The notes beneath the pieces are model-generated. The model was not told the origin of the DNA. It searched no databases and saw nothing but the letters and a program-made list of their open reading frames with translations. From assembly GCA_002049455.2 (NCBI GenBank), contig KV918884.1, positions 1 through 64,000 of the forward strand: 64,000 bases of DNA, in the 5' to 3' direction. This document shows positions 36,195 through 58,900 of the stretch, one piece after another; the stretch's first letter is position 1, and each line of letters opens with the position of its first letter. The stretch comes from Porphyra umbilicalis (taxonomy: Eukaryota; Rhodophyta; Bangiophyceae; Bangiales; Bangiaceae). The position numbers and the translations under genes are program-made.

Positions 36195-39100
36195 ATGGAC
36201 GGTGGCGCTGCCGGCATGGGCGGCATCAAGATTGACAAGTTGACGCAGACGAACTTCCACGAGTGGCGTCAGCGCATGAAGATGGTCCTGGCGCTGCGCG
36301 ACCTGGACGAAATGTTTGACGAAGACGGCAAGCCGACGGACCTGGAGGACCGCGAGTTGGCGGTGTGGAAGCGTCGAGACACGAAGGCGAGCGCCATCAT
36401 CGGGCTCACCCTTGGGTCTGAGCAGCTCGAGCACGTGTCGGGGTGCAAGACGACAGCGGAAATGTGGTCGACCCTGCAAGGCGTCTTCCAGCGCAAGTGT
36501 TTGATGAACAAGATGAAGGCGCGACGCGAGTTCTACACCGTCGCGATGAACGTCGGCGAGGGCACGCTGGGCTATATCAACCGCGTGCGCAACCTCGGCG
36601 AGAACCTGAAGGCCATGGGCGGCGAGGTGACGGAGATGGATGTCGCCATGAGCCTTCTCAACGGGCTGACGTCAAAGTATGAGAACCTGCTGGTGGCTCT
36701 CGACGCCAAGGGCGAGGACGAGCTAAGCCTCGAATATTTCAAGAGCCACTTGCTTCAGGAGGAGCGGCGTCAGGCGGACAAGTCACCGGCGATCAAGCGC
36801 ATTGGTGACATGGCACTCGTCGGCGCCAACTATCGAGGTCAAGGCCGCCGTGGTGACCTTTCCAAGATCGAGTGCTACTACTGCCACAAGTTTGGGCACA
36901 TCGCTCATGATTGCCCAGAGCTCAAGGCCAAGAAGCAGAGACAGGACAAGGTGGCCGCGATTGCGGCTGATGACGGTAGCGACAGCGACGACGCCATCTG
37001 TCTCGTTGGCAACGCGGATGACAACGATGACATTTCCAAGTCGTGGCTTGTCGACTCTGCGGCGTCTGCATACATTTGCTGGATGCGTGCGTGCTTCGAT
37101 GACTACAAGACGACCACGGGACGCAGCGTCACAATGGGTGACAAGGGGTCCGTGGCCACGGCGGGCGTCGGAACCGTCGTCCTCAACGTCATTGTTCAAG
37201 GCAAGACGCGCAAGATCAAGTTGGAGAAGGTGCTCCATGTTCCGACTATGGGCTTCAACCTCATGTCGGTCGGCATGGTGGAGGAACGCGGTGCGGAAGT
37301 GTCGTTCAAGCGCGGTATGTCCATCATCAAGATGAACGAGAAGATTGCTGCGTGCGGCACGCGTAAGAACGGGCTCGTCCACCTGGACATGGCCCCAATG
37401 TCGGATGTTGCTGCGGTGGCCTCTCTGCAGCTATGGCATGAGCGTCTTGGCCACGTGAACGTGGCCGGCGTCAAGAGGATGATCAAGAACAAGGACGTCG
37501 ACGGACTCAAGTGCACTTCCATGCTGGTCCAGGACATTTGCGAGCTGTGCGTGTACGGCAAGGCGGCAATGACGCCTACGCCTAGCGCAAGAGGCGCTCG
37601 TGTGACCAGGCGGCTCCAGCTCGTGCTCTCGGACCTCGGTGGACCTATGTCAGAACCCTCTCGTGGCGGAGCGCTCTACTTCGGCACGTTCACCGACGAC
37701 TTCTCCCGCTGGACGGACGTGGTCTTTCTGCACAAGAAGAGCAATCTTCTCGCGGAGTACAAGATGTGGCTGACCAAGGCACAGCTGCACACCGGCAACA
37801 AGATCAAGGTGCTCCGGTCCGACAACGGCGGCGAGTACGTGTCGTCCGCATTCAAGGCACTTAACGATGAGAACGGCACGACGCACCAGACGACGGTGCC
37901 CGACACGCCGTAGCAGAACGGGGTTGCTGAGCGACTCAACCGAGTTCTCGTGGAGATGGCACGCACCATGATGCGACACAAGGACGTCGACCAGGATCTT
38001 TGGGCGGATGCCATCAAGACGGCGGTCGACATCAAGAACCGCGTCACCAGCCGTGCGCTTCCCGTAGGCAAGACGCCTCATGAGCTATGGACCGGGAACA
38101 AGCCCGACGTTAGCCACATGCGGGTGTTTGGGTCAACATGCTGGGTGGTACTGCACAAGAGCCACGTCGATGGCAAGTTCGGAGACAAGGCGGCAAAGGG
38201 CATTTTCGTGGGCTATCCCGACGGCAGCAAGGCGTATAAGGTCATCCTCGACAACGGCAAGGTCGTCAAGGCGCGAAGCGTCGTTTTCTCCGAGAACAAC
38301 TCAAGCAAGGTTGCAGATGTTCCAGAGGACTCACCCGTGGACGAAGTCGTGGAAGGCGAGACGGGCTTGGATGCCGGCAGCGACGACCAAGACATCGACG
38401 CTGACGACGACCAAGACGTCGACGCTGACGATGACGGCGGAGACGACCAGCAAGATGATGGCTCGGACAAATCGGCAGACGACAATCAAGGTTCTGCCGG
38501 ATCTCAAGACACGCTGCCCGGGAGCGGCAAATCGCCGAGGCCGCCGGTTGAGTACTGGCGTCCAGTGAGCCTCGTTGCTCACGAGGCTCCCATGACGTAT
38601 GGGCAAGCAGTTCAAGGACAAGAGTCGACCAAGTGGCGGGCCGCAATGGACCAGGAGATAGACTCTATCCGCAAGAACAAGACATGGCGTTTGACGAATC
38701 GCCCGGTCAGCCGACGCGTGCTCAAGGGCAAGTGGGTTTACAAGGTCAAGGACGAGCTGGACAAGGTCGGGAACAACACGACGCGGCACAAGGCGCGCCT
38801 GTGCTTTATGGGCAATCGGCAGATCGAGGGGCTTGACTTCAACGAGACGTCTGCGCCGGTGGCCAAGTTCACTACCATCCGATGCATCCTGGCGATGACG
38901 GCGGCGAACGGGTGGGAGCTGCATCAGATGGACGTCAAGACGGCCTTCCTGAACGGCGACCTTGACTTGGAGGTCTACATGGAGCAGCCGGAGGGATACA
39001 TCGATCCCACGTATCCGGACAAGGTGTGCCGTCTTCTCCAAGCGCTGTATGGGCTTAAGCAAGCCCCCAAGATGTGGTACGCCAAGCTCGACGCCTTTCT

Positions 39101-40145
39101 CAAGTCGCAAGGGTTTGACAACATCGACCCGGATGCCTGCCTCTACCTCCAGATGGATGACGGTGAGATCATCATCGTCCTGGTGTACGTCGACGATCTT
39201 CTTCCGGTCGGGTCAAGCATGGAGGCGATTAACAAAATCAAGAAGGCGCTTCGCAAGCGCTTCGAGATGAAGGACCTGGGCGAAGCCAAGGTCATTCTCG
39301 GGCTAGAGATCAGCCGTGACAAGACGTTGGGCACCCTCAAGCTGTCGCAGGGCAAGTACGCGGGACAAGTGCTCGAGAAGTTCGGTATGGCGGAGTGCAA
39401 CCCGATCGCGACACCGTTGGAGGACAGGCTGCAGCTGGCTAAGTCGGAGAAGAGCGACGAGTCTCTTCCTTATCGCGAGGCCGTCGGAAGCCTGATGTAC
39501 CTGATGGTAGGGACACGTCCTGATCTCGCCTTTGCGCTCGGCAAGCTAAGCCGTTTCGTGTCGGGCTACGGGAAGGAGCACTGGGCGGCTGTGAAGCGCG
39601 TCCTCCGATATGTCAAGGGGTCTGTCGACAAGGGCCTGGTCTACAACAAGTCCGCGTCGGGCATCCTCCAAGGTTTCAGCGATGCCGACTGGGCAGGTGA
39701 CTGCAAGACGCGGCGGTCTACGACGGGCTTCATGTTCATCTTTGGCGGGGCGGCCGTCAGCTGGGCTTCGAAGTTGCAGAAGACGGTGGCGCTCTCTACC
39801 ATGAAGGCGGAGTACATGGCTCTTTGCGAGGCCAGCAAGGAAGCTGTTCGGCTCGACAAGCTCATCCAACGCGTCACCATGCTCGTGACGCAGTCGGACA
39901 CCTTTGTTGGGCCGGTTAACATCAAGGTCGACAACAGCGGCTGCATCGACTTCACCAAGAATCCCGTCGAGCACAAGCGCACCAAGCACATCGACATTCG
40001 CTACCACTTTGTGCAGGATGCAATCACGACGGACAAGGTCATCCTCGAGCACTGCCCAACGGACGAGATGGCGGCAGACCCGATGACGAAGGAGCTCGCC
40101 AAGGTCAAACACGAAAAGCGTGTCGAGACGATGGGGATGTGTTGA
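36195..40145 (+). pseudogene. gag-pol: copia1 gag-pol polyprotein with one internal TAG
   Basis: A single frame from ATG 36195 (MDGGAAGMGGIKI) to TGA 40145 is interrupted only by TAG 37911-37913. Domains: Gag with zinc knuckle CYYCHKFGHIAHDC (about 36870); protease WLVDSAAS (about 37045; the usual DSG/DTG is DSA); GAG-pre-integrase with HERLGH and CELC; integrase with Asp in SDLGGP and RSDNGGEY; and, after the stop, Glu in NGVAERLNR. Next come RT (QMDVKTAFLNGDL, LYGLKQAPKMWY, YVDD at about 39190) and RNase H (DADWAGDCKTRRSTTG, KAEYMA). The TAG replaces the CAG of copia2 and cuts integrase just before its catalytic Glu, so full-length polyprotein would need readthrough. Frames upstream of ATG 36195 are LTR and leader. 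Confidence 0.93.
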
Positions 40146-40474
40146 TGGGGATGTGTTGACTTCAAGTACGCGCCGTAAGTACAACCGGATGTAAGTACAT
40201 TGATCCTCCAAAGCGGCCATGACGGGCGGCATCGGATTTGGGACGTAAAGATTCTAGGCGGACTTACTTCTCGACAAGTACTTCAAGGGCGGGGACGATG
40301 GCGATGTGTTGATTGGGATGTGTTGACTTCAAGTACGCGCTGTAAGAACAACCGGATGTAAGTACATTGATCCTCCAAGGCGGCCATGACGGGCGGCATC
40401 GGATTTGGGACGTCAAGATTCTAGGCGGACTTACTTCTCGACAAGTCCTTCAAGGGCGGTCAGCTGTCAGGCGG
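40139..40474 (+). repeat. 168-bp tandem duplication in the copia1 3' UTR
   Basis: Two near-identical units start at 40139 and 40307 (tgttgatggggatgtgttga and tgttgattgggatgtgttga). Copia2 has only one such unit (59879-60046), so this is a copia1-specific duplication after the coding region. Confidence 0.9.
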
Positions 40475-40491
40475 CGTCAAGCAAGGGGGCG

Positions 40492-40913
40492 TGTTGGAAC
40501 GTCATGCTCAACGCCGCTGTAAGCCCTCCTGCTGTAAAAAAGCAAAATTCAAAAAACCAGGTATTGACAGGGTTCGAACCCCCGACTCCCGGACGCGACC
40601 CGAAGGTCACGCCTAATGAAAGTGCGTGCCTGCTTCCCACTAGGCTACCCATGCGACCTCCTCGCGATTTGGTGACCGCTGGTGTATTCGACATTTGTAC
40701 CCGTGCGATTTTGAGTGAAATATTTTGCGATTTCACATTTTTTGTTCTTGCGCTTTTGATGCTTTGATTTGCGTGGGCTTTGCTTTGATCCCTGATGCTT
40801 TGATTTGATGATCGTTTTGATTTAGAGTGTGGGCGGGCGCGTGCGCGGGCGAGCTGCTTGGGCTGCGTGGTGGGCTTGAGTGCTCCGACTTGGACTCTTT
40901 GAGGAGTGCCCTT
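40492..40913 (+). repeat. copia1 3' LTR, left part
   Basis: 422 bp matching 35485-35906, cut at the gypsy2 insertion. The last five bases, CCCTT (40909-40913), are the left copy of the gypsy2 target duplication. It contains the antisense tRNA-like module at 40561-40654. Confidence 0.93.
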
Positions 40914-41687
40914 TGTGACAACACGCTCAGCCCACCCCACCCAGTTGGGGGGAGGGCGAGCCAAACCGCGTCGCCGGGTAGTCCTGTTGGGGAATACCCG
41001 CCCCGGAAGGAAACCCCGAAGAGTACACACGCACGGCGTCGACCGAGGGACGGCGCCCCGAGCGACAAACACGAGTTGTGTGACCGGAAGTTTACTTGCC
41101 CGCGTCGAAGGCCTCGAGGCGACACTCACGCCTTGCCCTCTTATCCCGTCCGTTCCCCTCGGACCCTCAGAAAACCCTCTTCAGACACCCTCAAAGGACC
41201 CTCGGAAAACCCTCCTCAGATACCCTCAAAGGACCCTCGGAAAACCCTCCCCTCCGGGCCCATGGGGCCCGTCTCAGCGGAGGACGGCCGAAGCTTCGAA
41301 TACCGCCTTGAGTAGAGGCGGGGGAAGGGTTCTTCGTGACACCCTTGCGGCGCCCCGGGGTCAGGGGCGCGAAGTAATATAAGTCAATAATCCAAGTTGG
41401 GATTACACAAAATTAGGCCCTTTAGTAGGGGCCCACCCGGGGAGTTACTAGTTCCAGGGAAGTCTCGAGATCGCGGTTATGGTTGGTGAGCCACGGGGTG
41501 ATCACAAGTGGATCGCCACCGGAACGACTCGAAATATGCGGAACTAATGCATATTTGCCCTGAACGGGTTTGACGGTGGTCGGGATTTGTAGTGGATCCT
41601 GTCCGACCGGTTTTCCGGATCGGCTAACCCCCTCGTGATTGGAAGAAGGCCCCGTGCCGAGGCTTGACAAGCAGTAATGCTGTCACA
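40914..41687 (-). repeat. gypsy2 3' LTR
   Basis: 774 bp, bounded by TGTGACA and TGTCACA on the plus strand (an inverted repeat at the ends). The polypurine tract AAGAAGGGGGAAA (minus strand, 41700-41688) adjoins it. Confidence 0.95.
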
Positions 41688-43219: not shown

Positions 43220-46200
43220 TTAGCGGCGGCGGCCTCCCCTGTCCCCACCCCGTACTATGGGTGGGGAGGTTATGGCCCCCCTGCGCACCTTGAGTTGGTG
43301 GCGCTGGCAATACTGGCGGACCTTCTCAGCTGGGAGGTCCTCCACGTAGTGCCAGGTGTCCTCTCGGGGTCCATACCCGAACCATCTTACCTTGAGCATG
43401 AGTCGCTCTTGGTCGTCATACCCCTGTCCGACAAAGTGGTCGAAGACAGCCTCATTCGGTTTACTTACCGATGAGGGGAGGGAGGGGACCCGCCACGCGG
43501 CCAGTGCTCGTGCCCACGCCGGGTCACCCTCGGGTGGTTCCGGGGCCCGGGTGGCGTGGTTCCCATTGATGGTCCGGATACCATCGTCACTTTCGATGGT
43601 AAGCCGACGCCCGTCTGTCTTCAAGATCTGGTAGGGTCCCAGTGTCTTGAAGACGAGGTTACCCCCCTGGTTCTCGTTGGAGTTCACAAATACCCAGTCT
43701 CCGACTTGGAGGGCTTCGCGGCGAGTCTGCACGCGCTTGTCGAATGCTCGTTTGTACCGGGCCTGAGCCTTCTCCATGGTCTCCCGTACTAGGGGGATAA
43801 GGGAGTCAAGGCGCTGGAGGCAATTCTCCTTGGCTCGCCCGGGGGTTACTATCGCCCTGGTGTCGGTACCCGCTGTAAGTCGCTCGAGGGCCACGGGAGT
43901 AAGCCGTCGGGGGCTTACGAACGCAAAGTAGATCTGCCCGGTGCTACTATGCACTTGCCAATTGTAAGCCGTTACTACCAGGCTTAAGTATCGGGACAAC
44001 GTAACTACGTGGTCACTTACGTAGTGGCGTAGTTGCTTAACTAAGGTCTTATTAAACCGTTCGACCTGCCCATTAGTTTGTGGGTGATAAGGGGTGGCAT
44101 AGTTAGTGTCAATACCCAGGGTCTTGAGTACCCCTTGCCAGAGTACGGCAGCAAATCGGGGTCCGATATCCGATAGATCTGAATCGGGGATCCCATAGCT
44201 AGCAACCCACGTGTTGAGGAATGCGCTGAGAACATCCAGAGCCGTGATGTCTCGAAGCGGGACCGCCCGAGTGACCTTAGTAAATCGGTCACAAATAACT
44301 AGGATATACTCATATCCTTCGGGGGTCCTGGGCAGGTGGCCAAGTAAGTCGATGGCCAGCGCTGCGAAAGGTTCCGTCGCGGGGAACAACCTCATGAACG
44401 TTTTGCTCTGCGTACCCATGAGCCGGTTCTTAGCACAGGTGGGGCAAGCTGCCACCCACCCAAACACATGCATCGCCAGCGAGGGCCAGTAGTATTGGTC
44501 CCGCAGGGTCTGGTACATGCGCGTCCCACCTGGATGCGCAGCCAAGGGGGAGGAGTGCTCCGCCCGTAACACGTCCTTGACTAGGGACTGGGGGACCAGT
44601 ACCTGCTGGGTCCCCTCGCGGTGTCCGCGGCGGCACAACAACCCGTCTGCGTTCTCGTAGAAGCGCGTAGGGGTGGGGGTGTCAAGTAACTTCTTGACCC
44701 CCTGACAGAACTCGTTTGTCGCCTGCTTCTGGACTAGTTCGCCCAGGGGTATGCGGGCAGTCTCCCTGCTCTCGGGGAGTCGGGGGTCGAGTACCGCCCC
44801 CGATCGAGTGGTCACCCCGACTGTGGGGATCTCCTGGGAGATGGGTTCCGTGTCCAGCCCCTCAGTCGGGATGCGGGACAGAGCGTCGGCCACCGCATGT
44901 TGGGGGCCGGGCTTGTACTCCACATCATAGTCGAACTCCGAGAGGAGGATGCGCCAACGATTGAGTCGATTGTTGGTGCAGGCCGTCGTGGTTAGTATCC
45001 ACTTCAGTGCCTTGTGGTCACACCGGATGAGGAACTTGGTGCCTTCGATGTACGGTCGCAGTAAACCGACCGCCCACACCACACCTAGTCCCTCAATCTC
45101 GGTGACGGTGTAGTTCTTCTCCGCCGGTAGTAGGCACTTACTGAAGTAGCCTACGGGCAGGTACTTGCCATCGGGCTGCCGCTGTAGTAGGCAGCACCCT
45201 AGCTGGTCGTAGCTGGCGTCCACATCGATGATGTACTTCCCCTCCTTGCGCGGTATCGCAAGGATGGGCGGGTGGCATAGCTGTTCGCGTAGTTTGTCGA
45301 ACGCGTTCTGTTCCTCCGGAGTAGGGGGACTCAACCGCTTAGGAACCTTTACGCTGTTCAAGTTGTTCAGCGGCTTCGCGGTCTTAGCGAAGTTTACCGT
45401 GAACCGACGGTAGACATTGCACATCCCCCGGAAACTCCCAAGTTGGGTTTGGGTCTGGGGGAAGCTGGCCTTCCTGATGGCCTTGAGGTTCTTCTCGTTC
45501 ACACTCAAGCGTCCTGGCCGTACTACATGGCCAAGGTCCTCCACCTCGTTAGTAAAGAGGTGGCACTTCTGTGCCTTGAGGGTGACCCCGTGCTTCCCGA
45601 GTAAGGTGAGCACAGTGTCCAAGTGGAACAGGTGCGACTCGGCATCGGCGGAGAAGATGATGAGGTCGTCTAAGTAGACGAGCACATTCTGCCACTTGAC
45701 TCCGGATAGGATCATGTCAATAGCCCGCTGGAAAGTGGCAGGGGCATTGCGCAGGCCAAACGGAAGACGCGTACACTGGTACGTCCCACAGTGGCAAGTG
45801 AATGCGGTCTTCGGCTTCTCCTCCTCGGCTAGGGGGATCTGCCAGTACCCCGCGTTGCAGTCCAACGAGGAGAAGAACTGCGCATCCCCTGAGGAGTCGA
45901 GGCAGTCGTCCATCCGGGGTAGGGGATACGAGTCGCGTACTGTGCGCTCGTTCAACTGCCGATAGTCCATGCAGAACCGCGGACTCCCGTCGGGCTTCGG
46001 GATGAGTACCACCGGGCTAGCCCATTCACTCTGGCTGGGCTCTATAACTTCGAGCTTGAGCATTCGGTCGAAATGGGCCTTGATGAGTGCCCAAGTTCGG
46101 GGACCCATCCGGTAGGGGTTGAGCCGGACGGGCTTGGAGCCCGGCTTCAACTCGATCCGGTGCTCCGTGGCCTTTATGGAGCCCAAGTGCCCACTCCAGA

Positions 46201-47164
46201 GGGCTCGGTGCTTCTCCAGTAGGGCGAGCACATGAGGCCGCAACCCCTCGGGTACGTTCGAAGTATGAACGTGGGGTTCCTCCACGGGGTCAGTCAGTCG
46301 GGCGCGGTGCTCGGACAGGGACTGAGTGCAGCCCAGTCCTCGCGGGATATGGCGGCTACCGTACCGGAGAAGGCCGACATATGTCCTAGGACCATGCCCT
46401 TGCGGGGGCCGCTTCATCGTACTCCCCGTATGGGTTACCTCCACCCACCACGTCTGGTTGGCGGTGCAGTCCATGGTGCCAGTTGCGACATGCACGCGGT
46501 GGCGCTCATAAACTCGATGGCGCTGGGTGATGACCCCATTCCCTTGGAATGACGTCTGTACTGGGACGTATCCCCGGGACCGCGGGGGTATAACCACCTC
46601 GTGTGCTAGGCGCACCTTTGTGTCCGCCTCACTAGCGGCCCCCGACTGGTGTTGGTCCGCCCGGGCATACGACACCGTCTTACCCCGACGGAGGATGGGG
46701 ACCCTACATCCGTTTAGTAACCGGATGTACCCCTTGGGCCCGCAAATGTTGGGGACATGGACGTCCGTGTAGTCGGTCCCGAGGAGTAGGGGGACCGACA
46801 TGCCCGGCACTACCCCACACGTGACTGGGGTGGAGTAAGTGCCGACTCGCACCGTAAGAGTCACGGTGCCCGTGATAGGGAGAAGTCCCCCATTCACTTC
46901 AAATAACTGGGCGGTCGCCGCGTCTGAGGGCGCCACCTCCATCTCCGGGGGGAGTAGCGTTTCCCGTACTAGGGAGACACACGACCCCGTGTCGACTATG
47001 ACGCGGAGGGCTAGCTCACGCCCCGCGTCCAGCCAGACGCGACTGGCCACCTGGTAGTTGGACCCCGTCAGGATGGCCACCACATTCTGGCCGCTTACCC
47101 CCTTCGGGAGAGGTGCGTCCCGGGGGCGGATCCCCTTGGGTCGGGATGTGATGCGTACTGACAT
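43220..47164 (-). CDS. pol: gypsy2 pol: protease, RT, RNase H, integrase, chromodomain
   Basis: One open frame of about 1320 residues. The frame is open from about 47245, so translation by -1 shifting at 47236-47230 is expected; ATG 47164 is the first internal Met. Numbering from codon 47191: protease DTG 67-69; RT LDCNAGYW 443-450, LPFGLRNAPATFQRA about 476-490, YLDD 506-509; RNase H DVDAS 656-660 and RCDHKALKW 723-731; integrase zinc site with H886, C916 and C919, and catalytic D948 (IDLLG), D1008 (SDIGP, usually SDNGP) and E1044 (NGQVERF); chromodomain about 1262-1310 (VRWFGYGPREDTWHYVEDL). The chromodomain usually guides integration to marked chromatin. No premature stop was found. Overlapping plus-strand frames are shadows. 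Confidence 0.96.
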   Translation of the reverse strand: MSVRITSRPKGIRPRDAPLPKGVSGQNVVAILTGSNYQVASRVWLDAGRELALRVIVDTGSCVSLVRETLLPPEMEVAPSDAATAQLFEVNGGLLPITGTVTLTVRVGTYSTPVTCGVVPGMSVPLLLGTDYTDVHVPNICGPKGYIRLLNGCRVPILRRGKTVSYARADQHQSGAASEADTKVRLAHEVVIPPRSRGYVPVQTSFQGNGVITQRHRVYERHRVHVATGTMDCTANQTWWVEVTHTGSTMKRPPQGHGPRTYVGLLRYGSRHIPRGLGCTQSLSEHRARLTDPVEEPHVHTSNVPEGLRPHVLALLEKHRALWSGHLGSIKATEHRIELKPGSKPVRLNPYRMGPRTWALIKAHFDRMLKLEVIEPSQSEWASPVVLIPKPDGSPRFCMDYRQLNERTVRDSYPLPRMDDCLDSSGDAQFFSSLDCNAGYWQIPLAEEEKPKTAFTCHCGTYQCTRLPFGLRNAPATFQRAIDMILSGVKWQNVLVYLDDLIIFSADAESHLFHLDTVLTLLGKHGVTLKAQKCHLFTNEVEDLGHVVRPGRLSVNEKNLKAIRKASFPQTQTQLGSFRGMCNVYRRFTVNFAKTAKPLNNLNSVKVPKRLSPPTPEEQNAFDKLREQLCHPPILAIPRKEGKYIIDVDASYDQLGCCLLQRQPDGKYLPVGYFSKCLLPAEKNYTVTEIEGLGVVWAVGLLRPYIEGTKFLIRCDHKALKWILTTTACTNNRLNRWRILLSEFDYDVEYKPGPQHAVADALSRIPTEGLDTEPISQEIPTVGVTTRSGAVLDPRLPESRETARIPLGELVQKQATNEFCQGVKKLLDTPTPTRFYENADGLLCRRGHREGTQQVLVPQSLVKDVLRAEHSSPLAAHPGGTRMYQTLRDQYYWPSLAMHVFGWVAACPTCAKNRLMGTQSKTFMRLFPATEPFAALAIDLLGHLPRTPEGYEYILVICDRFTKVTRAVPLRDITALDVLSAFLNTWVASYGIPDSDLSDIGPRFAAVLWQGVLKTLGIDTNYATPYHPQTNGQVERFNKTLVKQLRHYVSDHVVTLSRYLSLVVTAYNWQVHSSTGQIYFAFVSPRRLTPVALERLTAGTDTRAIVTPGRAKENCLQRLDSLIPLVRETMEKAQARYKRAFDKRVQTRREALQVGDWVFVNSNENQGGNLVFKTLGPYQILKTDGRRLTIESDDGIRTINGNHATRAPEPPEGDPAWARALAAWRVPSLPSSVSKPNEAVFDHFVGQGYDDQERLMLKVRWFGYGPREDTWHYVEDLPAEKVRQYCQRHQLKVRRGAITSPPIVRGGDRGGRRR

Positions 47165-47187
47165 CTTATCCACGTCCCGGGTTGGGT

Positions 47188-47236
47188 CCACCGGTTGCCG
47201 CGGGGAGGGCCCAACACCGGTGGTTACTCGTTTCCC
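47188..47236 (-). promoter_or_regulatory. -1 ribosomal frameshift cassette of gypsy2
   Basis: Minus strand: slippery heptamer G-GGA-AAC (47236-47230) in the gag-extension frame, then GAG and the stop TAA. A 7-bp stem follows (CCACCGG 47223-47217 with CCGGTGG 47194-47188), extendable by TTG/CAA, with a large loop. The spacer is 6 nt. A -1 slip enters the pol frame, which opens at about 47245. Confidence 0.88.
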
Positions 47237-47475
47237 TCCTCGGACTCAGAGGTAGTGGTGGGTCCGCACTCGGGCTCGGTCTGCGGTTCCCCCTTCTCAA
47301 GCGGCGTCGACTCCTCGCCGCTTGAGCTGGAGTCCTCGTGGGGAGTGGCAACGGCTACTCGCCGGCCCGCTCGCGGGGTATAGCGGGAGCCCGAGGACGT
47401 CCCGAGAAGCGACCACCGACTGGCTATGGCCAATCGGTCGCGTAGGCGTGCGTCCAAGGCGGGGCACACCTCGGC
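47224..47475 (-). CDS. gypsy2 gag C-terminal extension beyond the TAG
   Basis: The gag frame stays open for 83 codons after the TAG at 47476-47478. It supplies the last Cys of the zinc knuckle (AEVC) and an acidic tail (PHEDSSSSGEESTPLEKGEP) ending EEGNE-TAA. Made only by readthrough of the TAG, or in source copies that lack the stop. Confidence 0.75.
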   Translation of the reverse strand, partial: AEVCPALDARLRDRLAIASRWSLLGTSSGSRYTPRAGRRVAVATPHEDSSSSGEESTPLEKGEPQTEPECGPTTTSESEEGNE

Positions 47476-48993
47476 CTAATGGCCCACCTTGCCACACTGC
47501 CAGCAAGGGTACTCTTCCGACCGGGATTTGGGTTGGGAAGGCCCATCCCTCGGTCGGGAGCGGTAGCGCGGGTTGTCGTTGCCCCCGGGAGTCGAGCCGC
47601 CTGGAGTCTTGGGTCGGGACCCATCGTACCGGGGGCCCGGAGTGGGGGCACCCTCGGACCCGACGGTCCGGACAGGGGCGTCCCGCGGCTGATAACCCTG
47701 CGTCCCCCCAGTGATCCGGGGAAGGGCGGCCGCACGAGCTTGCCGCCGGAGACGGGCGTCCTCCGCGAGCGCTTCTCGCCCCATGGTCCGCTCCTTGTGC
47801 TGCTCAAGTCGTAGCCAGCGGTGTTTGTCGCCCCTAGCCTGGGCGACGCGAGCCAGCTCCGCCATAGTCATGCCGGGGGTGTTGCGCTCGCGCACATTGG
47901 CGCGCGCAGCGCGGTGGACACTTTCCACAAAGCGCCTCTTGAGGGCGCTTTCCCCGTACATGAACCCGCACTCGGTGTTGAGGCGGCGGAGGCGCTCGGC
48001 GAAGGACAACTCGTCCTCGTCGTCCCGTTGGACCGCGACGTTCAGGGTCTCGACCAGAGTAGCCACCGAGGCCTCGTCGACGTGACGCCGAATCATCCAG
48101 TTGATAAGCTTCAAGTATGAAGTGACCTCGCCGGGGTTACCCGCCCGGCGAGTGGGCATAACCATCATCACCTCTGACTTGAGAGGCTCCTTCGTAAAGT
48201 CTTGAACGATGTAGAAGGCTTCGCCTTCGGAGATGTTGTTGTCGTCACAGGCCTTGGCAAACTTGCGCAAGAACTGGAAGACCTTGGCCGGGGGGGAACC
48301 ATCCCACTCGTCGTTCACCCCGAAGTCCTGAGCCACCTCTTTCTTGCGACGGGCCAGAGTACGGGCCTGGCGCTGCGTGTAGGCAACTGACTTGTTGTCT
48401 AGCGCGTAGGTCTCGCAATCGAACATCATCCGGTAGTACGGGTGGTTCACCACAATCTTGGGCGGCACCATCCGAGTTGGGGGTGTCAAAGTGGTTTGAG
48501 TAGGCCACCCCCCAGCCTCTGGACCGGTCGCGGAGGAGAATTGCGTCGGGAACCCCGGGTCAATACCCCGGGGTAACTCTCGCGCCGCCCCCCCGCCTTG
48601 CACACCCTCCGCCGAGTCAGGAGTCGGTTGGGCCCTCGAGTCAATACCCCGAGTGCCCTCCCTCACCGTCGACGGCGGGGGGGTAGCACGGAACGCACCA
48701 AGTAGGGCCGCAACTGCTGACTCGTCCCCCGAGCGGGAGACGTCAGTGGTCGACGAAGACGACGAGTTGTCGCGTCGGCGCCGACGAGCAGAGCATCGGG
48801 CTCGGCCCCGCTGCTCAGCGGGCCTTGGCGTAGAGCCCCTCAACATCGTAACTAGCGATCGGGTAACTTCGGACCGAGCGACCTCGGCCACGGCGTCTCG
48901 CCACTCGAGACCCGGGCCATCCCTGGCACCCCGTGAACCTGGGGGAGCAAGACAAGAGCTCCCGCCTGCAGGCTCCCGTGCCGATCCTGGCAT
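47476..48993 (-). CDS. gag: gypsy2 gag
   Basis: I chose ATG 48993 (MPGSAREPAGG); the frame is open from 49179 without another ATG, and the upstream part is a near-duplicate (49155-49070 repeats 48990-48905). The order is a Pro/Ser/Arg-rich N-terminus, a capsid-like region (YPYYRMMFDCETYALDNK-like segment, VFQFLRKFAKACDDNNISEG, about 48300) and a basic region leading to CWQCGKVGH. TAG follows His directly, inside the CX2CX4HX4C knuckle, so the product as written lacks the final Cys. LTR identity suggests a recent insertion, so the TAG is either a recent mutation or leaky. Confidence 0.88.
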   Translation of the reverse strand: MPGSAREPAGGSSCLAPPGSRGARDGPGLEWRDAVAEVARSEVTRSLVTMLRGSTPRPAEQRGRARCSARRRRRDNSSSSSTTDVSRSGDESAVAALLGAFRATPPPSTVREGTRGIDSRAQPTPDSAEGVQGGGAARELPRGIDPGFPTQFSSATGPEAGGWPTQTTLTPPTRMVPPKIVVNHPYYRMMFDCETYALDNKSVAYTQRQARTLARRKKEVAQDFGVNDEWDGSPPAKVFQFLRKFAKACDDNNISEGEAFYIVQDFTKEPLKSEVMMVMPTRRAGNPGEVTSYLKLINWMIRRHVDEASVATLVETLNVAVQRDDEDELSFAERLRRLNTECGFMYGESALKRRFVESVHRAARANVRERNTPGMTMAELARVAQARGDKHRWLRLEQHKERTMGREALAEDARLRRQARAAALPRITGGTQGYQPRDAPVRTVGSEGAPTPGPRYDGSRPKTPGGSTPGGNDNPRYRSRPRDGPSQPKSRSEEYPCWQCGKVGH

Positions 48994-49625
48994 CGTCCCC
49001 CCCTCCCAAGCACCGAGGGGGGATCTCCCACCGGGCCCCAGGGCCGGGGGACCGATACCGTGGGTCCCGGCGCCGTGCTCAAGCGCCGGGGCACCCTTGG
49101 CACTCCGTGAACCTGGGGGAGCACGACTAGAGCTCCCACTCACAGGTTCCCGTGCCGGTGGTGGCACAGACCCACCGCCTCACGTGGTATCGTCGGGCAG
49201 CTGTCCTACGCCGAAATGAGGGCCAGCACCCGACATGACCGCCTCGGGGTGAGTACTACCCGAGGGGGCGCCTGCCGGGGGGCGAGTCCCAGACGGATCG
49301 AGGCCCGGGGGCAAAGGTTGGAACAGAGTCCGCGCCCCGCGGGCACCCGCATCCGTGGTGCCGGCACTGGTGTGGCGATCGTCAACCAACGATCCGCCTC
49401 CAGGGGGGGGTAATCTCATCCGCCCCGGCACCAGGCACCTCGACACCAGGGGGGTCTCCATTCCCCCCCCCATCGGCCGTCGACCCGGCCGGACTCAGCC
49501 AAACCTGGCGTTGCGGGGCACCGCCCGCAGCGCTAGGCACCAAGGGGAGGAGGACCAACTAGGTTCCCCCCGAGGCGGGTTTGCGCACCGCCACCACCCC
49601 GAGGAAGGTTGAGTTGCCTTCCCCC

Positions 49626-49640
49626 CCTGCTGCTCCACCA
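49626..49640 (-). other. gypsy2 primer binding site
   Basis: Minus strand TGGTGGAGCAGCAGG, two bases from the 5' LTR edge at 49643. Identical to the gypsy1 site. Isotype unknown. Confidence 0.82.
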
Positions 49641-49642
49641 AA

Positions 49643-50416
49643 TGTGTCAACACGCTCAGCCCACCCCACCCAGTTGGGGGGAGGGCGAGCCAAACCGCGT
49701 CGCCGGGTAGTCCTGTCGGGGAATACCCGCCCCGGAAGGAAACCCCGAAGATCACACACGCACGGCGTCGACCGGGGGAAGGCGCCCCGAGCGACAAACA
49801 CGAGTTGTGTGACCGGAAGTTTACTTGCCCGCGTCGAAGGCCTCGAGGCGACACTCACGCCTTGCCCTCTTATCCCGTCCGTTCCCCTCGGACCCTCAGA
49901 AAACCCTCTTCAGACACCCTCAAAGGACCCTCGGAAAACCCTCCTCAGATACCCTCAAAGGACCCTCGGAAAACCCTCCCCTCCGGGCCCATGGGGCCCG
50001 TCTCAGCGGAGGACGGCCGAAGCTTCGAATACCGCCTTGAGTAGAGGCGGGGGAAGGGTTCTACGTGACACCCTTGCGGCGCCCCGGGGTCAGGGGCGCG
50101 AAGTAATATAAGTCAATAATCCAAGTTGGGATTACACAAAATTAGGCCCTTTAGTAGGGGCCCACCCGGGGAGTTACTAGTTCCAGGGAAGTATCGAGAT
50201 CGCGGTTATGGTTGGTGAGCCACGGGGTGATCACAAGTGGATCGCCACCGGAACGACTCGAAATATGCGGAACTAATGCATATTTGCCCTGAACGGGTTT
50301 GACGGTGGTCGGGATTTGTAGTGGATCCTGTCCGACCGGTTTTCCGGATCGGCTAACCCCCTCGTGATTGGAAGAAGGCCCCGTGCCGAGGCCTGACAAG
50401 CAGTAATGCTGTCACA
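49643..50416 (-). repeat. gypsy2 5' LTR
   Basis: 774 bp, beginning TGTGTCAACACGC on plus where the other LTR has TGTGACAACACGC. Both carry the same ggaccctcggaaaaccctcc-type short internal repeats and end TGTCACA. Confidence 0.95.
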
Positions 50417-50421
50417 CCCTT

Positions 50422-50545
50422 GATGGGAAGAGGGGCGCTTTGGAGAGACAACCATCAAAGCACGTTCGCACACATACACACGACCTCAAGCCACTCAACC
50501 ACTTCACCGTGGTCCCCCATTCCTTATCCCCACTGCGTCACAACA
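50422..50545 (+). repeat. copia1 3' LTR, right part
   Basis: 124 bp resuming at gatgggaagaggggcgctt after the CCCTT duplication and ending cgtcacaaca. It differs from the matching part of the 5' LTR at 7 positions. The next bases belong to the gypsy3 chromodomain reading frame. Confidence 0.9.
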
Positions 50546-53500
50546 CGCAGCGTCTCGTGCGGGGCGTCCGCGGCGTCCATCCAGGTGGGCTGCGGGTATC
50601 CGTTCCAGTAGACTTGGACCCGGAGGGTGCCGTCGGGCACCGTCGCGTGGTCCGCGATGCGGTCCACGGCATATCGCTGGCCTTCGGCCTCCGCCCCACG
50701 GAAGGAGCGCGCTGCCCGCAACGCGGGGTGTTGGGCAGGGGACTCGGCGGCCGTGCCCGAGGCGCGGACGACGTGCGCGACGTTTTCACGGCGGTGCTCC
50801 CCGTCTACGTCCAGGAGCGCCGTCGGGCCGTCCGTGGAAGCCACGCGATACGGTCCGCGGGCGACGTGTGTCAACTTGCCGCAGGCGCCCTTCTCCTTGG
50901 CGTGGTCTCGCAGCCACGCGCAGCCCCCCACGGTGAGCCTCTCCGCTCGCAGCGCGAGGAGCTTGTCGTGGTCGCGCTTGCAGCGCCCCTGCGTCGCCTT
51001 AAGCATTGCCCACATCTGCGGGATGAGCTGGACGAGGCTGGTCAGGAGGGAGGCTTGGGCCCGGTTCTCGGCGGCGGTGCCGCATTCGCCGTGATGGGGT
51101 ACGCCCCGGACTTGGGGATGTCCTTGAAAGCCCAGCTGGATACCCCCATGGGGTTGACCAGTTCCAGCAGGGCAACCCCGGTGCTACTGTGGGGGCGGCT
51201 GTTGTACGCCAGCGTCAGGGCCCCAAGAAGTTGGTCCCAGGACCGCGGATGCTCCGCCATGTAGTGGTTCAGGATCGTATGCATCGTTCGTTTGAACCGC
51301 TTCGTCTGCCCGTTCGTCTGCGGGTGTGACGGCGACGTCACCTTAGGCTCGATGGAGAGCAGGTTGCAAACCTGGCCTCAGAAGTGGCTGGTGAACTGGG
51401 GTCCCCCGTCCGAGAGCAGCCGGTCCGGCGGACCATAAGCGCCCACCCAGTAGTCCAGGACGGCCGAGGCGCAGTCCACCGCCGACGTACCGTCCATCGG
51501 GAGGGCGCGCACCAGCTTGGTGAATCGGTCTGTGATCACCAGGATGAACCGGTGGCCGGCGGCCGTTCGTGCGAGGGGCCCGTAGAGGTCCACAGCAATG
51601 TCCTGGAAGGGCATGGTGGCGGGGAACAGGGTTAGGGGCGAGCGCCGCGCCAGAGGGCGCACGCGCTGCCGGGCACTGCTGTCGCATTTCCCAACATAGG
51701 AGACGACGTCGGCCGCCATCCCCACCCAGCAGTAGTAACGCCGCATCGCCGCATACATGCGGGACTCCCCGGGGTGCCCGGCGAGGGTCGCGTCGTGCTC
51801 CAGGTGGAGGACCTGCTCCTGCAAGGAGGTTGGGACCACCACCTGGTGGGCGCCATCGGGCGCCGCGCGTCGCCAAAGGACCCCATCAGGGTCCTCGAAG
51901 AACGGGCTGCGCCGCCCGTCGTTCAGGGCCTTCACGATCTCCTTGCAGTACCCGTCGCCGGCTTGGGCCGAGAGCACCGCGTCGCGGTTAATGTCACGGA
52001 CCGTAGGGCCGCCAACGTAGTTGGCGGCGTCGAGCCCCCGGACCGTGATGGCCCGCACGGCAAAGACGGGGACCGCGTCATCGAACGCGGTCTTGTCGCT
52101 GGCCCCGGACTCCAGGCGGGAGATGCTGTCGGCCATGTAGTGCGTCATCCCCGGCTTGTTGGCGACGTCGAACTCCAACTCGCTTAGGCGAAGGCGCCAG
52201 AGTGCCAAGCGGGGATTTCCCGAACCCTCGATGTTGAGGATCCACCACAGCAGTCGTGGTCCGTGCGCACGAGGAAATGATCACCCTCGAGGTAGGGGCG
52301 GAGTTTGAGCGACGCCCGAAAGACTGCCAGGCACTCCTTCTCCGTGACCTTGTAGGGGAGCTCGTTCTTTGCCAGCCGCCGGCTGATATACGCGACCGGC
52401 TGGAGCTTCCCGTCGTCATGCTCTGGCAGCAGGGCGGCGCCCACTTGCGTCCCGCAGGCGTTCACGTCGAGGACGTACTTCCGCCCGCGCCGCGGAAGTG
52501 CGAGGACCGGCGGGGTCGTAAGGGCCTCCTTGAGCCGGTCGAACGCCTGCTGCTGCAATGGTGTGGCGGGGGGCACCATGACAGGGGCCGTGGACCCCAT
52601 GAGTTCCGTCAATGGCGCCGCCATCATTGCGATGTTCGGCAAGAACCGGTGGAAGACGTTGCACATCCCCACGAAGCTCCGTTCTTGCGTGCGGGTCGTG
52701 GGGAAGCGCGCCTCGCGCAAGGCGCGCGTGTGCGCGTCCATCACGCCGAGCCGGCCCGGCTTGATTTCTTGCCCGAGGTACTCCACGGTATTCCGAAAGA
52801 ACCGGCACTTGGGCAGGCGGAGTGTCACTCCCGCGTCGCGAAGCAGGCGCAGGACGCGGTCGACGTGGCCGACGTGTTCCTCCTCCGTCTTGGAGTACAC
52901 GATGACATCGTCGAGGTAGATGAGGAAGCTTTGTCACTTTACCCCGGAGAGGATGATGTCCAGCGCCCGCTGGAACGTCGCCGGGGCGTTTGTTAGGCCG
53001 AACGGCATCCGTTTGTACTGGTACGCGCCCTCGTAACACACGAAAGCCGTCTTCTTCCGATCTTCAGGTGCGATGGCAACCTGCCAGTAGCCGGAGTTGC
53101 AATCCAACGTCGAGAAGATGGTCGCCTTACCGAGGCTGTCGATGCATTCATCCATCCGGGGCAGCAGGTACGAGTCCTTCTTGGTGACGACGTTCAGCAG
53201 TCAATATTCGACGCAGAAGCGGAGGGTGCCATTCTTCTTTGGGACGAGCACGACCGGGAAGCCCCATTTCGACAACGTCGGTTCGATGACGTCCGCCTCC
53301 AGCTGCCGCTTGACCTCGGCCGTCTCGGCCTCCCGCGCCGTGTGCCCCGCGCGGCGCGGCGCGAAGCGCACGGGCCGGGCGCCGCCTTTGAGGTCGATGC
53401 GGTGCTGGGTGGCCGCGATGACGCCGAGCGCCTGGCCCATCCACATTACCTTGTGCTGGTCCAGCATGCGGCGGATCTGGGTGTGCAGCGTCGGGTCGAC

Positions 53501-54954
53501 GACCGGCAGGTCCACGTCCTCCACTTGCGGGGGGGACGCGGGCAGCGCTGCGCCCGCCACGGCGCCTTCTTCGCCCGGGTTCCGGGGTCGTGCGGGGGTC
53601 GCAGCCCCACCGCCCGCGGCCGTCGCCGGGTCCAGGCTCCCCCCCGGCGCGGGGTCGTCTCGGCTGCTTGACACCGCCGCCACGACGCCCTCGGCGGCCG
53701 TGGCCGGCGCGAAGGCCGGGGCGGCCGGTGTACCGGGGGGTGCCCCGGGGGGCACCTGTACGACGCCCGTCGTCAGCAGCTCGACGTAGCCAACGTTGGC
53801 CCTCTGACTGAGGATGACCTCGCGCGCGCCAAAGTTGGCCACGATGACCAGGAAAGATAGCCCCGGCACAATATCGTGCACGCCGTTGGCGATGGTGACC
53901 CCATGCGTTGTGAAGAGGCGCGAGGCGCCGAACACCTGGCTCAGGCCCCCCCACATGGTCCGCACCCAGACAAGCGTGGCCGCAGACGGCGGAAGCCGCG
54001 TCTTGTGCGTCGCGCGGACAACGCAGGAGACGCCCATTGAGCGGTCACAATCGTCCAACGGCCCCCGTACGATCGCCGTGACGGACCCGTCCGTCCAACG
54101 GATGGACCTATCCTGAGGCAGGATGGCGTGGGCGTTGTCGTTGATGAACGTGCACGCCAAGATGACCGGACAGACAGGTCCTCGACGACGAGGAAGGGAA
54201 CCGGGACAATCCGTGCGCCCGTCTGGAGCCACAGCGTGACGGTACCGCTAGTGCGTAAACGTGCGTTGTTGGCGTCTCGTAGACGTACCTATTCCTCCTC
54301 CTACGAGGTGACCACCTGGCGAAGCCAGTCAGGAGCGAGGGCGTTCCGGCGGACCAAGTTGGGGCCCGCCCCCGTGTCGACGACGACGCCGAACGCACGG
54401 AGCGACAGCTTGTCCAGCCCCAACGAGGCCACAATGCGGTAGTCGTGCAGACTGATAAGCAGCACTTCCCCGCCCCCAGACGGGGTGCCCGGCGCGTGCG
54501 TGGTGTCCGCGACGGCGGCGGCGTGGCGGCGAAAGCGGGTACGCTCGCGCCGAGCGCGTCTCCCGAGGCGCCGCCGGAGCCTCTGCCCGGTGCGCGCCCA
54601 GTTGGCGGGTAAGTCCGCCGGGATGCCATCCCCGCCACCCCACGGCCGGGGGTCGGAGTGGCCCAGGGCCAGTACTGACGTGGCGACCGGCGGAGACGGA
54701 GGGACGGCCTCGGTGGCCAACGGCGTCGCTGGGACGGGGCGGCGGTCCGGCACGTCCGCCGGCGCGTGGCCGACCCCCCCGGGCCGCGCGAGGATGCGGG
54801 GGCAGAAGGCGGGCGCTGCCGGGAATCCCGCTGGGGCCCGGCGCTTGCGTACCTGGCGCAGGCGGGTTGCCGTGATGTAGCAGTGCCGGTGTACCTTGAG
54901 ACGGACGACGTCCGTGGGCAGCCCACTAAGGGGGCTGCCCCTTACTCGTTTCCC
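50546..54954 (-). pseudogene. pol: gypsy3 pol with several stops and frameshifts
   Basis: Protease (VVVDTGAGPNLV, about 54385); stops TAG 54301-region and a frame change; protease C-terminus and RT (53950-52930) with a TGA after RFCVEY (about 53200), LDCNSGYWQVA, LPFGL-type MPFGLTNAPATFQRA, and a TGA at the conserved Trp before IYLDD (about 52933). RNase H (VLDVNA, RTDHD) follows with a frame change near 52200. Integrase comes next with CDSSAR (weak zinc Cys), DLYGPL, SDGGPQF, a TGA after TSHF (51378), and NGQTKRFKRT, where Lys stands at the catalytic Glu position. It ends in a chromodomain (VQVYWNGYPQPTWMDAADAP) cut at 50546 by copia1. Confidence 0.9.
54916..54954 (-). promoter_or_regulatory. 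-1 ribosomal frameshift cassette of gypsy3
   Basis: Minus strand: G-GGA-AAC (54954-54948), GAG, TAA, then a perfect 9-bp stem (GGGCAGCCC 54940-54932, loop of 7, GGGCTGCCC 54924-54916). The spacer is 7 nt. A -1 slip leads into the protease frame (GKRVRGSPLSG). Confidence 0.88.
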
Positions 54955-55224
54955 TGGGCGTGGCAGGTGCGGCCGTCCCCGTGACCCGCGCCGTCGGCCC
55001 CCGCGATCCACTCCTCGAAGGAACTCTCCCCCTCGTTGCCTGCTGCGTCCGGGTACGCCCGGTCATCCGTTTCCACGGTGTGGACGAAGGCAGCCGTGCC
55101 CGGCGGGACGGTCCCATGGTTGGCGCCGGTCGGCGGTACCGGTGGAACCGGCGGTCCCGCGCCCAGAGGCAGGGGTGCCGGTGGCGCTGGTCCCCGCCCG
55201 TTGCGGTGTGCCGCGACTGCCTCG
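54942..55224 (-). pseudogene. gag: gypsy3 gag C-terminal part, left of copia2
   Basis: It continues the gag frame from 60611 once copia2 is removed. Acidic, Pro-rich tail (TDDRAYPDAAGNEGESSFEEW) ending CHAQGNE-TAA at the frameshift cassette. Confidence 0.82.
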
Positions 55225-55770
55225 TGTTGAAACGTCATGCTCAACGCCGCTGTAAGCCCTCCTGCTGTAAAAAAGCAAAATTCAAGAAACCAGGTATTGA
55301 CAGGGTTCGAACCCCCGACTCCCGGACGCGACCCGAAGGTCACGCCTAATGAGAGTGGGTGCCTTCTTCTCAATAGGCTACCCATGCGACCTCCTCGCGG
55401 TTTGGTGACCGCTGGTGCATTCGGCACTTGTACCCGTGCGATTTTGAGTGAAATATTTTGCGATTTCACATTTTTTGTTCTTGCGCTTTTGATGCTTTGA
55501 TTTGCGTGGGCTTTGCTTTGATCCCTGATGCTTTGATTTGATGATCGTTTTGATTTAGAGTGTGGGCGGGCGCGTGCGCGGGCGAGCTGCTTGGGCTGCG
55601 TGGTGGGCTTGAGTGCTCCGACTTGGACTGCTTGAGGAGTGCCCTTGATGGGAAGAGGGGCGCTTTGGAGAGACAACCAACAAAGCACGTTCGCACACAT
55701 ACACACAAGCTCAAGCCACTCAACCACTTCACCGTGGTCCCCCATCCCCTATCCCCACTGCGTTTCAACA
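55225..55770 (+). repeat. copia2 5' LTR
   Basis: 546 bp, TGTTGAAACG...GTTTCAACA. The antisense tRNA-like module is at 55294-55387, with a decayed A box (TAGCCTATTGAG). Confidence 0.96.
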
Positions 55771-55784
55771 GGTTATGGGCCCAG
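55771..55784 (+). other. copia2 primer binding site (initiator tRNA-Met anticodon arm)
   Basis: ggttatgggcccag, abutting the LTR as in copia1 and the TRIM. Confidence 0.88.
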
Positions 55785-55934
55785 GGCCGGGGCTGTCACA
55801 AGGGCAAGGTGTGCCAGACGGCGTCGCGGCGGTCGCGACAAGTGCGAAGAAGACGAGTGCAAGGTGGTTCAAGGACGCGACGGTCAAGGCGCAAGGTTCG
55901 GAAAGATCGGGAAGCGCTACGACAAGCAGGCATC

Positions 55935-58900
55935 ATGGACGGTGGCGCTGCCGGCATGGGCGGCATCAAGATTGACAAGTTGACGGAGACGAACTTCCAC
56001 GAGTGGCGCCAGCGGATCAAGATGGTCCTCGCGCTGCGCGACCTGGACGACATGCTTGACGAAGACAGCAAGCCGACGGACGCGGAGGACCGCGAGTTGG
56101 CGGTGTGGAAGCGTCGAGACACGAGGGCGAGCGCCATCATCGGGCTCACCCTTGGGTCTGAGCAGCTCGAGCACGTGTCGGGGTGCAAGACGACGGCAGA
56201 AATGTGGTGGACCCTGAAAGGCGTCTTCCAGCGCAAGTGTTTGATGAACAAGATGAAGGCGCGACGCGAGTTCTACACCGTCGCGATGAACGTCGGCGAG
56301 GGCATGCTGGGCTTTATCAACCGCGTGCGCAACCTCGGCGAGAACCTCAAGGCCATGGGCGGCGAGGTGACGGAGGTGGATGTCGCCATGAGCCTTCTCA
56401 ACGGGCTGACGTCAAAGCATGAGAACCTGCTGGTGGCTCTCGACGCCAAGGGCGAGGACGAGCTAAGCCTCGAATATTTCAAGAGCCGCTTGCTTCAGGA
56501 GGAGCGGCGTCAGGCGGACAAGTCACCGGCGATCAAGCGCATGGGTGACATGGCACTCGTCGGCGCCAACTATCGAGGTCAAGGCCGCCGTGGTGACCTT
56601 TCCAAGATCGAGTGCTACTACTGCCACAAGTTTGGGCACATCGCTCATGATTGCCCAGAGCTCAAGGCCAAGAAGCAGAGACAGGACAAGGTGGCCGCGA
56701 TTGCGGCTGACGATGGTAGCGACAGCGACGACGCCATCTGTCTGCTGGGCAACGCGGATGACAACGATGACATTTCCAAGTCGTGGCTTGTCGACTCTGA
56801 GGCGTCTGCACACATGTGCTGGATGCGTGCGTGCTTCGATGACTACAAGACGACCACGGGACGGAGCGTCACTATGGGTGACAAGGGGTCCGCGGCCACG
56901 GCGGGCGTCGGAACCGTCGTCCTCAACGTCATTGTTCAAGGCAAGACGCGCAAGATCAAGTTGGGGAAGGTGCTCCATGTTCCGACTATGGGCTTCAACC
57001 TCATGTCGGTCGGCATGGTGGAGGAACGCGGTGCGGAAGTGTCGTTCAAGCGCGGTATGTCCATCATCAAGATGAACGAGAAGATTGCTGCGTGCGGCAC
57101 GCGTAAGAACGGGCTCGTCCACCTGGACATGGCCCCAATGTCGGATGTTGCTGCGGTGGCCTCTCTGCAGCTATGGCATGAGCGTCTTGGCCACGTGAAC
57201 GTGGCCGGCGTCAAGAGGATGATCAAGAACAAGGACGTAGACGGACTCAAGTGCACTTCCATTCTGGTCAAGGACATTTGCGAGCCGCGCGTGTACGGCA
57301 AGGCGGCAATGACGCCTATGCCTAGCGCAAGAGGCGTTCGTGTGACCAGGCGGCTCCAGCTCGTGCCCTCGGACCTCGGTGGACCTATGTCAGAACCCTC
57401 TCGTGGCGGAGCGCTCTACTTCGGCACGTTCACCGACGACTTCTCCTGCTGGACGGACGTGGTCTTCCTGCACAAGAAGAGCAATCTTCTCGCGGTGTAC
57501 AAGAAGTGGCTGACCAAGGCACAGCTGCACACCGGCAACAAGACCAGGGTGCTCCGGTCCGACAACGGCGGCAAGTACATGTCGTCCGCATTCAAGGCAT
57601 TTCACGATGAGAACGGCACGACGCACCAGACGACGGTGCCCGACACGCCGCAGCAGAACGGGGTTGCTGAGCGACTCAACCGAGTTCTTGTGTAGATGGC
57701 TCGCACCATGATGCGACACAAGGACGTCGACCAGGATCTTTGGGCGGATGCCATCAAGACGGCGGTCGACATCAAAAACCGCGTCACCAGCCGTGCGCTT
57801 CCCGTAGGAAAGACGCCTCATGAGCTATCGACCGGGAACAAGTCCGACGTAAGCCTCATGCGGGTGTTTGGGTCAGCATGCTGGGTGGGACTGCACAAGA
57901 GCCACGTCGATGGCAAGTTCGGAGACAAGGCGGCAAAGGGCATTTTCGTGGGCTATCCCGACGGCAGCAAGGCGTACAAGGTCATCCTCGACGACGGCAA
58001 GGTCGTCAAGGCGCGAAGCGTCGTTTTCTCCGAGAACAACTCAAGCAAGGTTGCAGATGTTCCAGAGGACTCACCCGTGGACGAAGTCGTAGAAGGCGAG
58101 AAGGGCTTGGATGCCGGCAGCGACGACCAAGACATCGACGCTGAAGACGACCAAGACGTCGACGCTGAAGATGATGGCGGAAACGACCAGCAAGATGATG
58201 GCTCGGACAAATCGGCAGACGACAATCAAGGTTCTGCCGGATCTCAAGACACGCTGCGTCGGAGCGGCCGATCGCGGAGGCCGCCGGTTGAGGACTGGCG
58301 TCCAGTGAGCCTCGTTGCTCACGAGGCTCCCATGACGTATGGGCAAGCAGTTCAAGGACAAGAGTCGACCAAGTGGCGGGCCGCAATGGACCAGGAGATG
58401 GACTCTATCCGCAAGAACAAGACATGGCGTTTGACGAATCGCCCGGTCGGGCGACGCGTGCTCAAGGGCAAGTGGGTTTACAAGGTCAAGGACGAGGTTG
58501 ACAAGAACGGGAACAGCACGACGCGGCACAAGGCGCGCCTGTGCTTTATGGGCAATCGGCAGATCAAGGGGCTTGACTTCAACGAGACGTTTGCGCCGGT
58601 GGCCAAGTTCACGACCATCCGATGCATCCTGGCGATGTCGGCGGCGAACGAGTGGGAGCTGCATCAGATGGACGTCAAGACGGCCTTCCTGAACGGCGAC
58701 CTTGACTTGGAGGTCTACATGGAGCAGCCGGAGGGATACATCGATCCCACGTATCCGGACAAGGTGTGCCGTCTTCTCCAAGCGCTGTATGGGCTTAAGC
58801 AAGCCCCCAAGATGTGGTACGCCAAGCTCGACGCCTTTCTCAAGTCGCAAGGGTTTGACAACATCGACCCGGAAGCCTGCCTCTACCTCCAGATGGATGA

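Follow-up and report, generated by a model that had tools for sequence, protein, structure and literature searches.

The site at positions 47188 to 47236 of a 64,000-nt stretch of DNA from the red alga Porphyra umbilicalis (contig KV918884.1; referred to here as the window; 64% G+C) very probably directs programmed -1 ribosomal frameshifting between gag and pol in a Ty3/gypsy-type element, through which a Gag-Pol protein would be produced. The initial annotation had proposed such a cassette in three gypsy elements of the window (gypsy1, gypsy2, and gypsy3). This proposal was supported by the sites themselves, by their phase, by the protease in the -1 frame, and by their recurrence in the genome (83.8 Mb and 665 contigs searched).

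Gag/pol junctions in the window

The three GGGAAAC sites are at the annotated positions, all on the minus strand (Table 1). On this strand, the gypsy2 gag frame ends with GAG GAG GGA AAC GAG TAA, and the -1 frame (GGG AAA CGA GTA ACC) continues without a stop as far as the protease motif D-T-G, in agreement with the ending and the open pol frame originally described. Both gypsy2 and gypsy3 read G_GGA_AAC in the gag phase, and in each of them the -1 frame extends to the protease D-T-G. The GGGAAAC heptamers fit X XXY YYZ when read in the same phase as the frame upstream, with the exception of the gypsy1 copy in the window, whose long gag frame is in another phase. What had been called a gag extension in gypsy2 ends as reported but is actually the true gag tail, located behind an in-frame stop specific to this copy. 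The pol frame opens just 3 codons upstream of the heptamer in 22 of the 23 gypsy2 copies with the exact heptamer; the gag/pol overlap in the window copy is therefore 22 nt (47224 to 47245).

The gypsy2 pol has the domain order of Ty3/gypsy elements (RVT_1, 415-574; RNase H, 669-771; H2C2, 884-941; and rve, 957-1055, the last with a score of 31.2 bits, slightly below the cut-off of 32.6). A CCHC knuckle was seen in gag by eye, and a Pfam search of the gag piece at 47479 to 49179 returned no match. Judged by its integrase 3' of RT-RNase H, its flanking LTRs, and its CCHC gag, gypsy2 is a Ty3/gypsy-type LTR element.

All three window copies are damaged. Compared with one copy of its family, gypsy1 carries an 8-nt deletion near 7431, between the knuckle and the tail, which puts the long gag frame of this copy out of phase with the heptamer; two other copies of the family keep knuckle and tail in one phase. 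The first 53 residues of its protease frame (window 6726 to 6884) match a widespread repeat (E of about 6e-16 to 3e-22 elsewhere), and an insertion between the cassette and the protease is therefore probable. The gypsy3 gag is interrupted by a copia element (LTRs at 55222-55770 and 60062-60610). Despite this damage, the annotated order of GGGAAAC, one sense codon, stop, and hairpin was confirmed on the minus strand in gypsy3 and gypsy1.

The window holds two copia elements (35484-40913 and 55222-60610) that are 97.5% alike over 4.7 kb. A programmed stop common to both was considered and rejected; their stops are at different codons (37911 and 57693) and are thus attributed to decay. A search of window positions 46900 to 55200 against Rfam gave no match up to an E value of 1.

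Table 1. Features of the three gypsy elements in the window
Element	Feature	Positions	Strand	Remarks
gypsy2	Slippery heptamer G_GGA_AAC, gag phase	47230-47236	-	
gypsy2	Spacer: sense codon GAG and gag stop TAA (47226-47224)	47224-47229	-	
gypsy2	Stem, 5' arm (8 bp with 47188-47195)	47216-47223	-	Covariation between subfamilies
gypsy2	Stem, 3' arm	47188-47195	-	
gypsy2	gag frame	47227-49179	-	Copy-specific in-frame stop 47476-47478 in zinc knuckle
gypsy2	pol, -1 frame: protease D-T-G, RT, RNase H, integrase	43220-47245	-	
gypsy2	3' LTR	40914-41687	-	LTR pair 98.8% identical, 774 nt
gypsy2	5' LTR	49643-50416	-	98.8% identity to 3' LTR over 774 nt
gypsy3	Slippery heptamer	54948-54954	-	
gypsy3	GAG codon and stop TAA	54942-54947	-	
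gypsy3	9-bp hairpin	54916-54940	-	Arms 54932-54940 and 54916-54924; opens at base 2 after stop
gypsy3	pol, N-terminal part, -1 frame, protease D-T-G	54301-55062	-	Ends at stop, 54301
gypsy3	gag, upstream part, severed by copia element 55222-60610	60915-63143	-	90% identity to gag P0238, 583 aa
gypsy1	Slippery heptamer	7244-7250	-	
gypsy1	GCC codon and stop TAG	7238-7243	-	
gypsy1	10-bp hairpin	7215-7237	-	Arms 7228-7237 and 7215-7224; opens at base 1 after stop
gypsy1	gag frame, 470 aa	7116-8528	-	Out of heptamer phase in window copy
gypsy1	Protease frame	6411-6884	-	First 53 residues match separate repeat

Conservation of the heptamer and of the two reading frames

In the whole genome, GGGAAACNNNTAA was present at 150 places (59 for the reversed pattern), and the same pattern with a TAG stop was present at 139 places (76 for the control). 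No excess was detected in the genome for the version with a TGA stop (59 versus 86 in the control); that is, UAA and UAG exceeded the control after GGGAAAC-NNN, and UGA did not. One GGGAAACGCCTAA place (L003), in which neither frame is open for long, was discarded as a probable chance match.

Copies of the elements were selected by the protease stretches that start behind the heptamer. Among the best 30 of 141 gypsy2 matches and the best 30 of 129 gypsy3 matches, GGGAAAC was intact in 24 and 27 copies, respectively (51 of 60 together), and was followed by a stop one codon on in 22 and 26. It was likewise intact in 16 of 20 gypsy1-family copies selected by protease. It was found in 9 of 12 more distant gypsy2-type copies and was mostly lost in older gypsy3-type copies (intact in 1 of 8, with the site not covered in one of the 8). 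In a fourth set, 18 of 20 loci contained the pattern; this set was chosen partly by the pattern itself and is no test.

The cassettes were arranged in groups A (gypsy2), B, C, D (gypsy3), D4, E (gypsy1), F, G, and H. The gag tails of the representatives end with GN-E, GN-A, or GN-K, or with ENE in the one copy of H. From the heptamer, the -1 frame is free of stops to the protease in 10 of 11 representatives, the exception being G. Among the copies read, two of E and those of F, C, and G have a zinc knuckle in the heptamer phase, as does H by position; the G copy carries a stop. In group B, no knuckle was found in phase within the 774 nt read, and a piece taken for RT gave no RT match.

Substitutions among copies indicated the same change of frame. 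In gypsy2 (aligned without L033, the upstream part of which is unrelated) and gypsy3, the mean pairwise difference peaks at the third gag codon position upstream and at the third position of the -1 frame downstream (permutation P = 0.0044 and 0.0006 upstream, respectively, and 0.0002 downstream in both). Models with a switch to the -1 frame scored 13.7 (gypsy2) and 15.4 (gypsy3), versus 1.4 and 2.8 with no switch and 1.6 and 4.6 with a switch to +1. The best switch point was near the heptamer rather than on it (+76 to +98 in gypsy2 and -68 to -16 in gypsy3), an offset that may be explained by sparse data. On this evidence, the downstream frame of both elements is open in -1 and under coding constraint.

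Outside this genome, the junction could be traced at the protein level. Gag relatives ending with Gly-Asn-X-stop amounted to 32 of 117 in one set and 13 of 76 in another, where very similar rows may share one species; Pyropia vietnamensis is the only organism named among the 117. Of 19 gag relatives with at most 60% identity, 10 have this ending, including two from P. vietnamensis. Many of the remaining relatives seem to be truncated, and a small number differ from this ending by one residue (GDE, GSE, or RNE, for instance). Among the 120 pol proteins listed, which served as a control, none ends with Gly-Asn-X, and one (P0018) has a GKRVT trace of the shifted frame. No match was obtained when viral contigs were searched with the RT piece.

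Downstream stems and a second candidate slip site

The 36 nt 3' of the gypsy2 stop fold with an outer stem that opens at the first base; a stem had been annotated there, with 7 bp instead of the 8 bp obtained in this fold. Stems begin 6 to 7 nt after the heptamer, within a spacing of 5 to 9 nt, in 12 of 13 representative cassettes. An uninterrupted stem of at least 6 bp from base 1 or 2 after the stop is likewise present in 12 of the 13, versus 271 of 4,281 background windows; the sole miss is L005, with 4 bp. In the gypsy2 clade (33 distinct sequences, aligned without L033 and L034), 96.6% of the cells of the 8-bp stem are paired, versus at most 51.5% in slid controls, and two pairs are changed on both sides, in related sequences only. 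When the clade was reduced to 7 representatives, 94.6% were paired, again with two double-change pairs.

Folding energies gave a more mixed picture. The 36 nt 3' of the stop are jointly stabler than the background (Fisher P of about 2e-9); this value was computed over 9 of the 14 listed cassettes, one per group and leaving out H, A2, D2, D5, and a second A copy, in groups that are not fully independent. When 55-nt windows were dinucleotide-shuffled, only 4 of 16 cassettes had z below -2, and the gypsy2 fold of this length favours another pairing over the 8-bp stem. The hairpins of gypsy1, gypsy2, and gypsy3, annotated as one structure kept under unrelated sequences, are family-specific stems at the same place and need not have diverged from one hairpin.

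A pseudoknot, common but not required in such signals, is conceivable in gypsy2: the loop sequence GTTGGG is complementary to CCCAAC, which lies past the stem, and this second pairing would either compete with the main stem or form a knot with it (window 47181 to 47215). In the gypsy2 clade, the second pairing is 80.3% paired with three double-change pairs; in L080, the L069/L070/L076/L078/L079 group, and the L071-L075/L077 group, some of its pairs differ on both sides. The geometry with the first stem looks strained: with connectors of 0 and 1 nt, the GTTGGG/CCCAAC pairing should exclude or strain the 8-bp stem. In gypsy3, an examination by eye revealed no pairing between loop and downstream sequence that held over the variants.

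A scan for RVT_1, in which 150 of 847 candidates were scored, showed that the commonest Ty3-type family among the scored RT hits is none of the groups A to H. The junction and hairpin of this family were read in one copy, L143 (G000:C64:197388-197400, from base 689). Its gag has a CCHC knuckle and ends with S-K-N-V-stop, its pol is in the -1 frame, and its junction reads TCG AAA AAC GTC TAG; an 8-bp stem starts immediately 3' of this stop. The pattern GAAAAACGNCTAG (GAAAAAC-GNC-TAG) was present at 187 places, whereas its reversed control was present at 3; variants starting with A, C, or T occurred at 14 (35 in the control), and the looser pattern AAAAACNNNTAR was not enriched (637 versus 887). 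Of 79 scored RT hits on contigs C1 to C110, 60 have GAAAAAC upstream (57 at 1,146 to 1,152 nt and 53 at exactly 1,149 nt), 7 have GGGAAAC, and 12 have neither heptamer.

This family departs from the XXX part of X XXY YYZ, and its P-site codon is noncanonical. Its geometry is that of the GGGAAAC families, i.e., a site ending with AAC, one codon, a UAR stop, and a stem 0 to 1 nt later. By its pol N terminus, L143 is nearest to P0066 and P0036, and in an RT tree P0036 and P0058 fall together, separate both from D and D4 and from the group of A, C, E, F, G, and H. Given this affinity and this grouping, the layout is probably common to three deep lineages, in a tree that has some deep forks open and contains no RT of L143.

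Interpretation and comparison with known systems

The frame arrangement, the phase of the heptamer, the -1 opening, the conservation, the covariation of the gypsy2-clade stem, and the recurring geometry, all read from the DNA, point to a programmed -1 frameshift. Most ribosomes would read GGA-AAC-NNN-UAR and release Gag. A minority would be stalled by the stem 6 to 7 nt past the heptamer and would move one base back, from GGA to GGG and from AAC to AAA, so as to bypass the stop and produce Gag-Pol. We infer that slipping occurs, how efficient it is, that the stem stimulates it, and that the element needs the ratio of Gag to Gag-Pol.

The same arrangement could be an artefact of decay, if gag and pol once formed one frame and the -1 offset were an indel shared by dead copies. 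Every copy in the window is indeed damaged; however, the offset, the heptamer, and the spacing are found again in families with an RT merely some 61 to 76% identical to that of gypsy2, 10 of 50 gypsy2/gypsy3 loci with the exact heptamer have both frames uninterrupted to the ends of the retrieved stretch, and the periodicity of substitutions switches frame, all of which makes decay extremely unlikely. Also very unlikely is an alternative in which Pol results from stop-codon readthrough or from termination-reinitiation and the heptamer and stem serve another purpose. The stem directly 3' of the stop would suit both processes, but readthrough would remain in the wrong frame, and UGA, usually the leakiest stop, is not enriched. 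For reinitiation, the gypsy2 -1 frame offers one Met, 24 residues in, whereas the representatives of gypsy3, of the gypsy1 family, and of L080 have no Met from the cassette to the protease, which reinitiation there would therefore lose.

Slippage of the polymerase at the G3A3 or A5 run, yielding a shifted mRNA, is barely credible. Such runs exist, with five A's in the GAAAAAC family, but the usual polymerase slippage needs runs longer than three bases; the fixed order of codon, stop, and stem would also suit ribosomes better. Ribosomal -1 frameshifting is thus the reading that we retain.

The closest likeness is to PEG10, a mammalian gene derived from Ty3/gypsy, for which the portions of PMC2800197 considered here describe a GGGAAAC site, a -1 shift between gag-like and pol-like frames, a 5-nt spacer, comparable to those of our cassettes, and a protease motif soon after. 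PEG10 differs in its reported pseudoknot, its 61-nt frame overlap, and its status as a domesticated gene (PMC2800197, same portions), whereas the cassettes described here have a short stem and a stop one codon past the heptamer and belong to multicopy elements. The table of PMC3835772 includes GGGAAAC sites of JSRV, MPMV, SRV-1, SRV-2, SMRV, HERV-K10, FIV, CAEV, and ovine maedi-visna. In the rows considered, these sites share the heptamer, a spacer of 4 to 7 nt, and a downstream structure, but they are tabulated as detected pseudoknots, whereas the stem alone is supported here.

PMC5009743 lists GGGAAAC with the heptamers on which mammalian ribosomes shift most, and a 2003 survey reported there counted 28 animal LTR elements, of 51, with pol in the -1 frame, i.e., the same strategy at the same junction. 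Section 11 of that review names animal, fungal, and plant elements, and a red alga is not among them. GAAAAAC, the heptamer of the second family, has been proposed as a shifty heptamer for -1 shifting in mycoviruses, which are dsRNA viruses and not retroelements and in which the shift is proposed only (excerpts of PMC3483285 and PMC9244493). Among the titles and abstract openings listed from an open-licence literature library for retroelement frameshifting in red algae or with this heptamer, no report on red-alga elements was found.

While the mechanism is known from retroviruses and PEG10, the fixed position of the stop, the immediate stem, and the uniform design are distinctive here. We suggest, quite tentatively and as a reading with the odds against it, that the Ty3/gypsy lineages sampled keep a strict layout (variable P-site codon, A-site AAC, exactly one sense codon, UAR, and a stem 0 to 1 nt on) through changes of heptamer and stem, that the stop in the spacer is a working part, and that G_AAA_AAC is a regular slip site in this host. 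If so, the stop would be more than a mere end of gag and could place the stem at the mRNA entry or couple slip and release. On strong comparative grounds, these results extend -1 frameshifting between gag and pol to a red alga of the Bangiales. They also supply a single layout in numerous natural versions, with two slip sites and several different stems, on which the contributions of the spacer stop and the noncanonical P-site codon can be tested directly.
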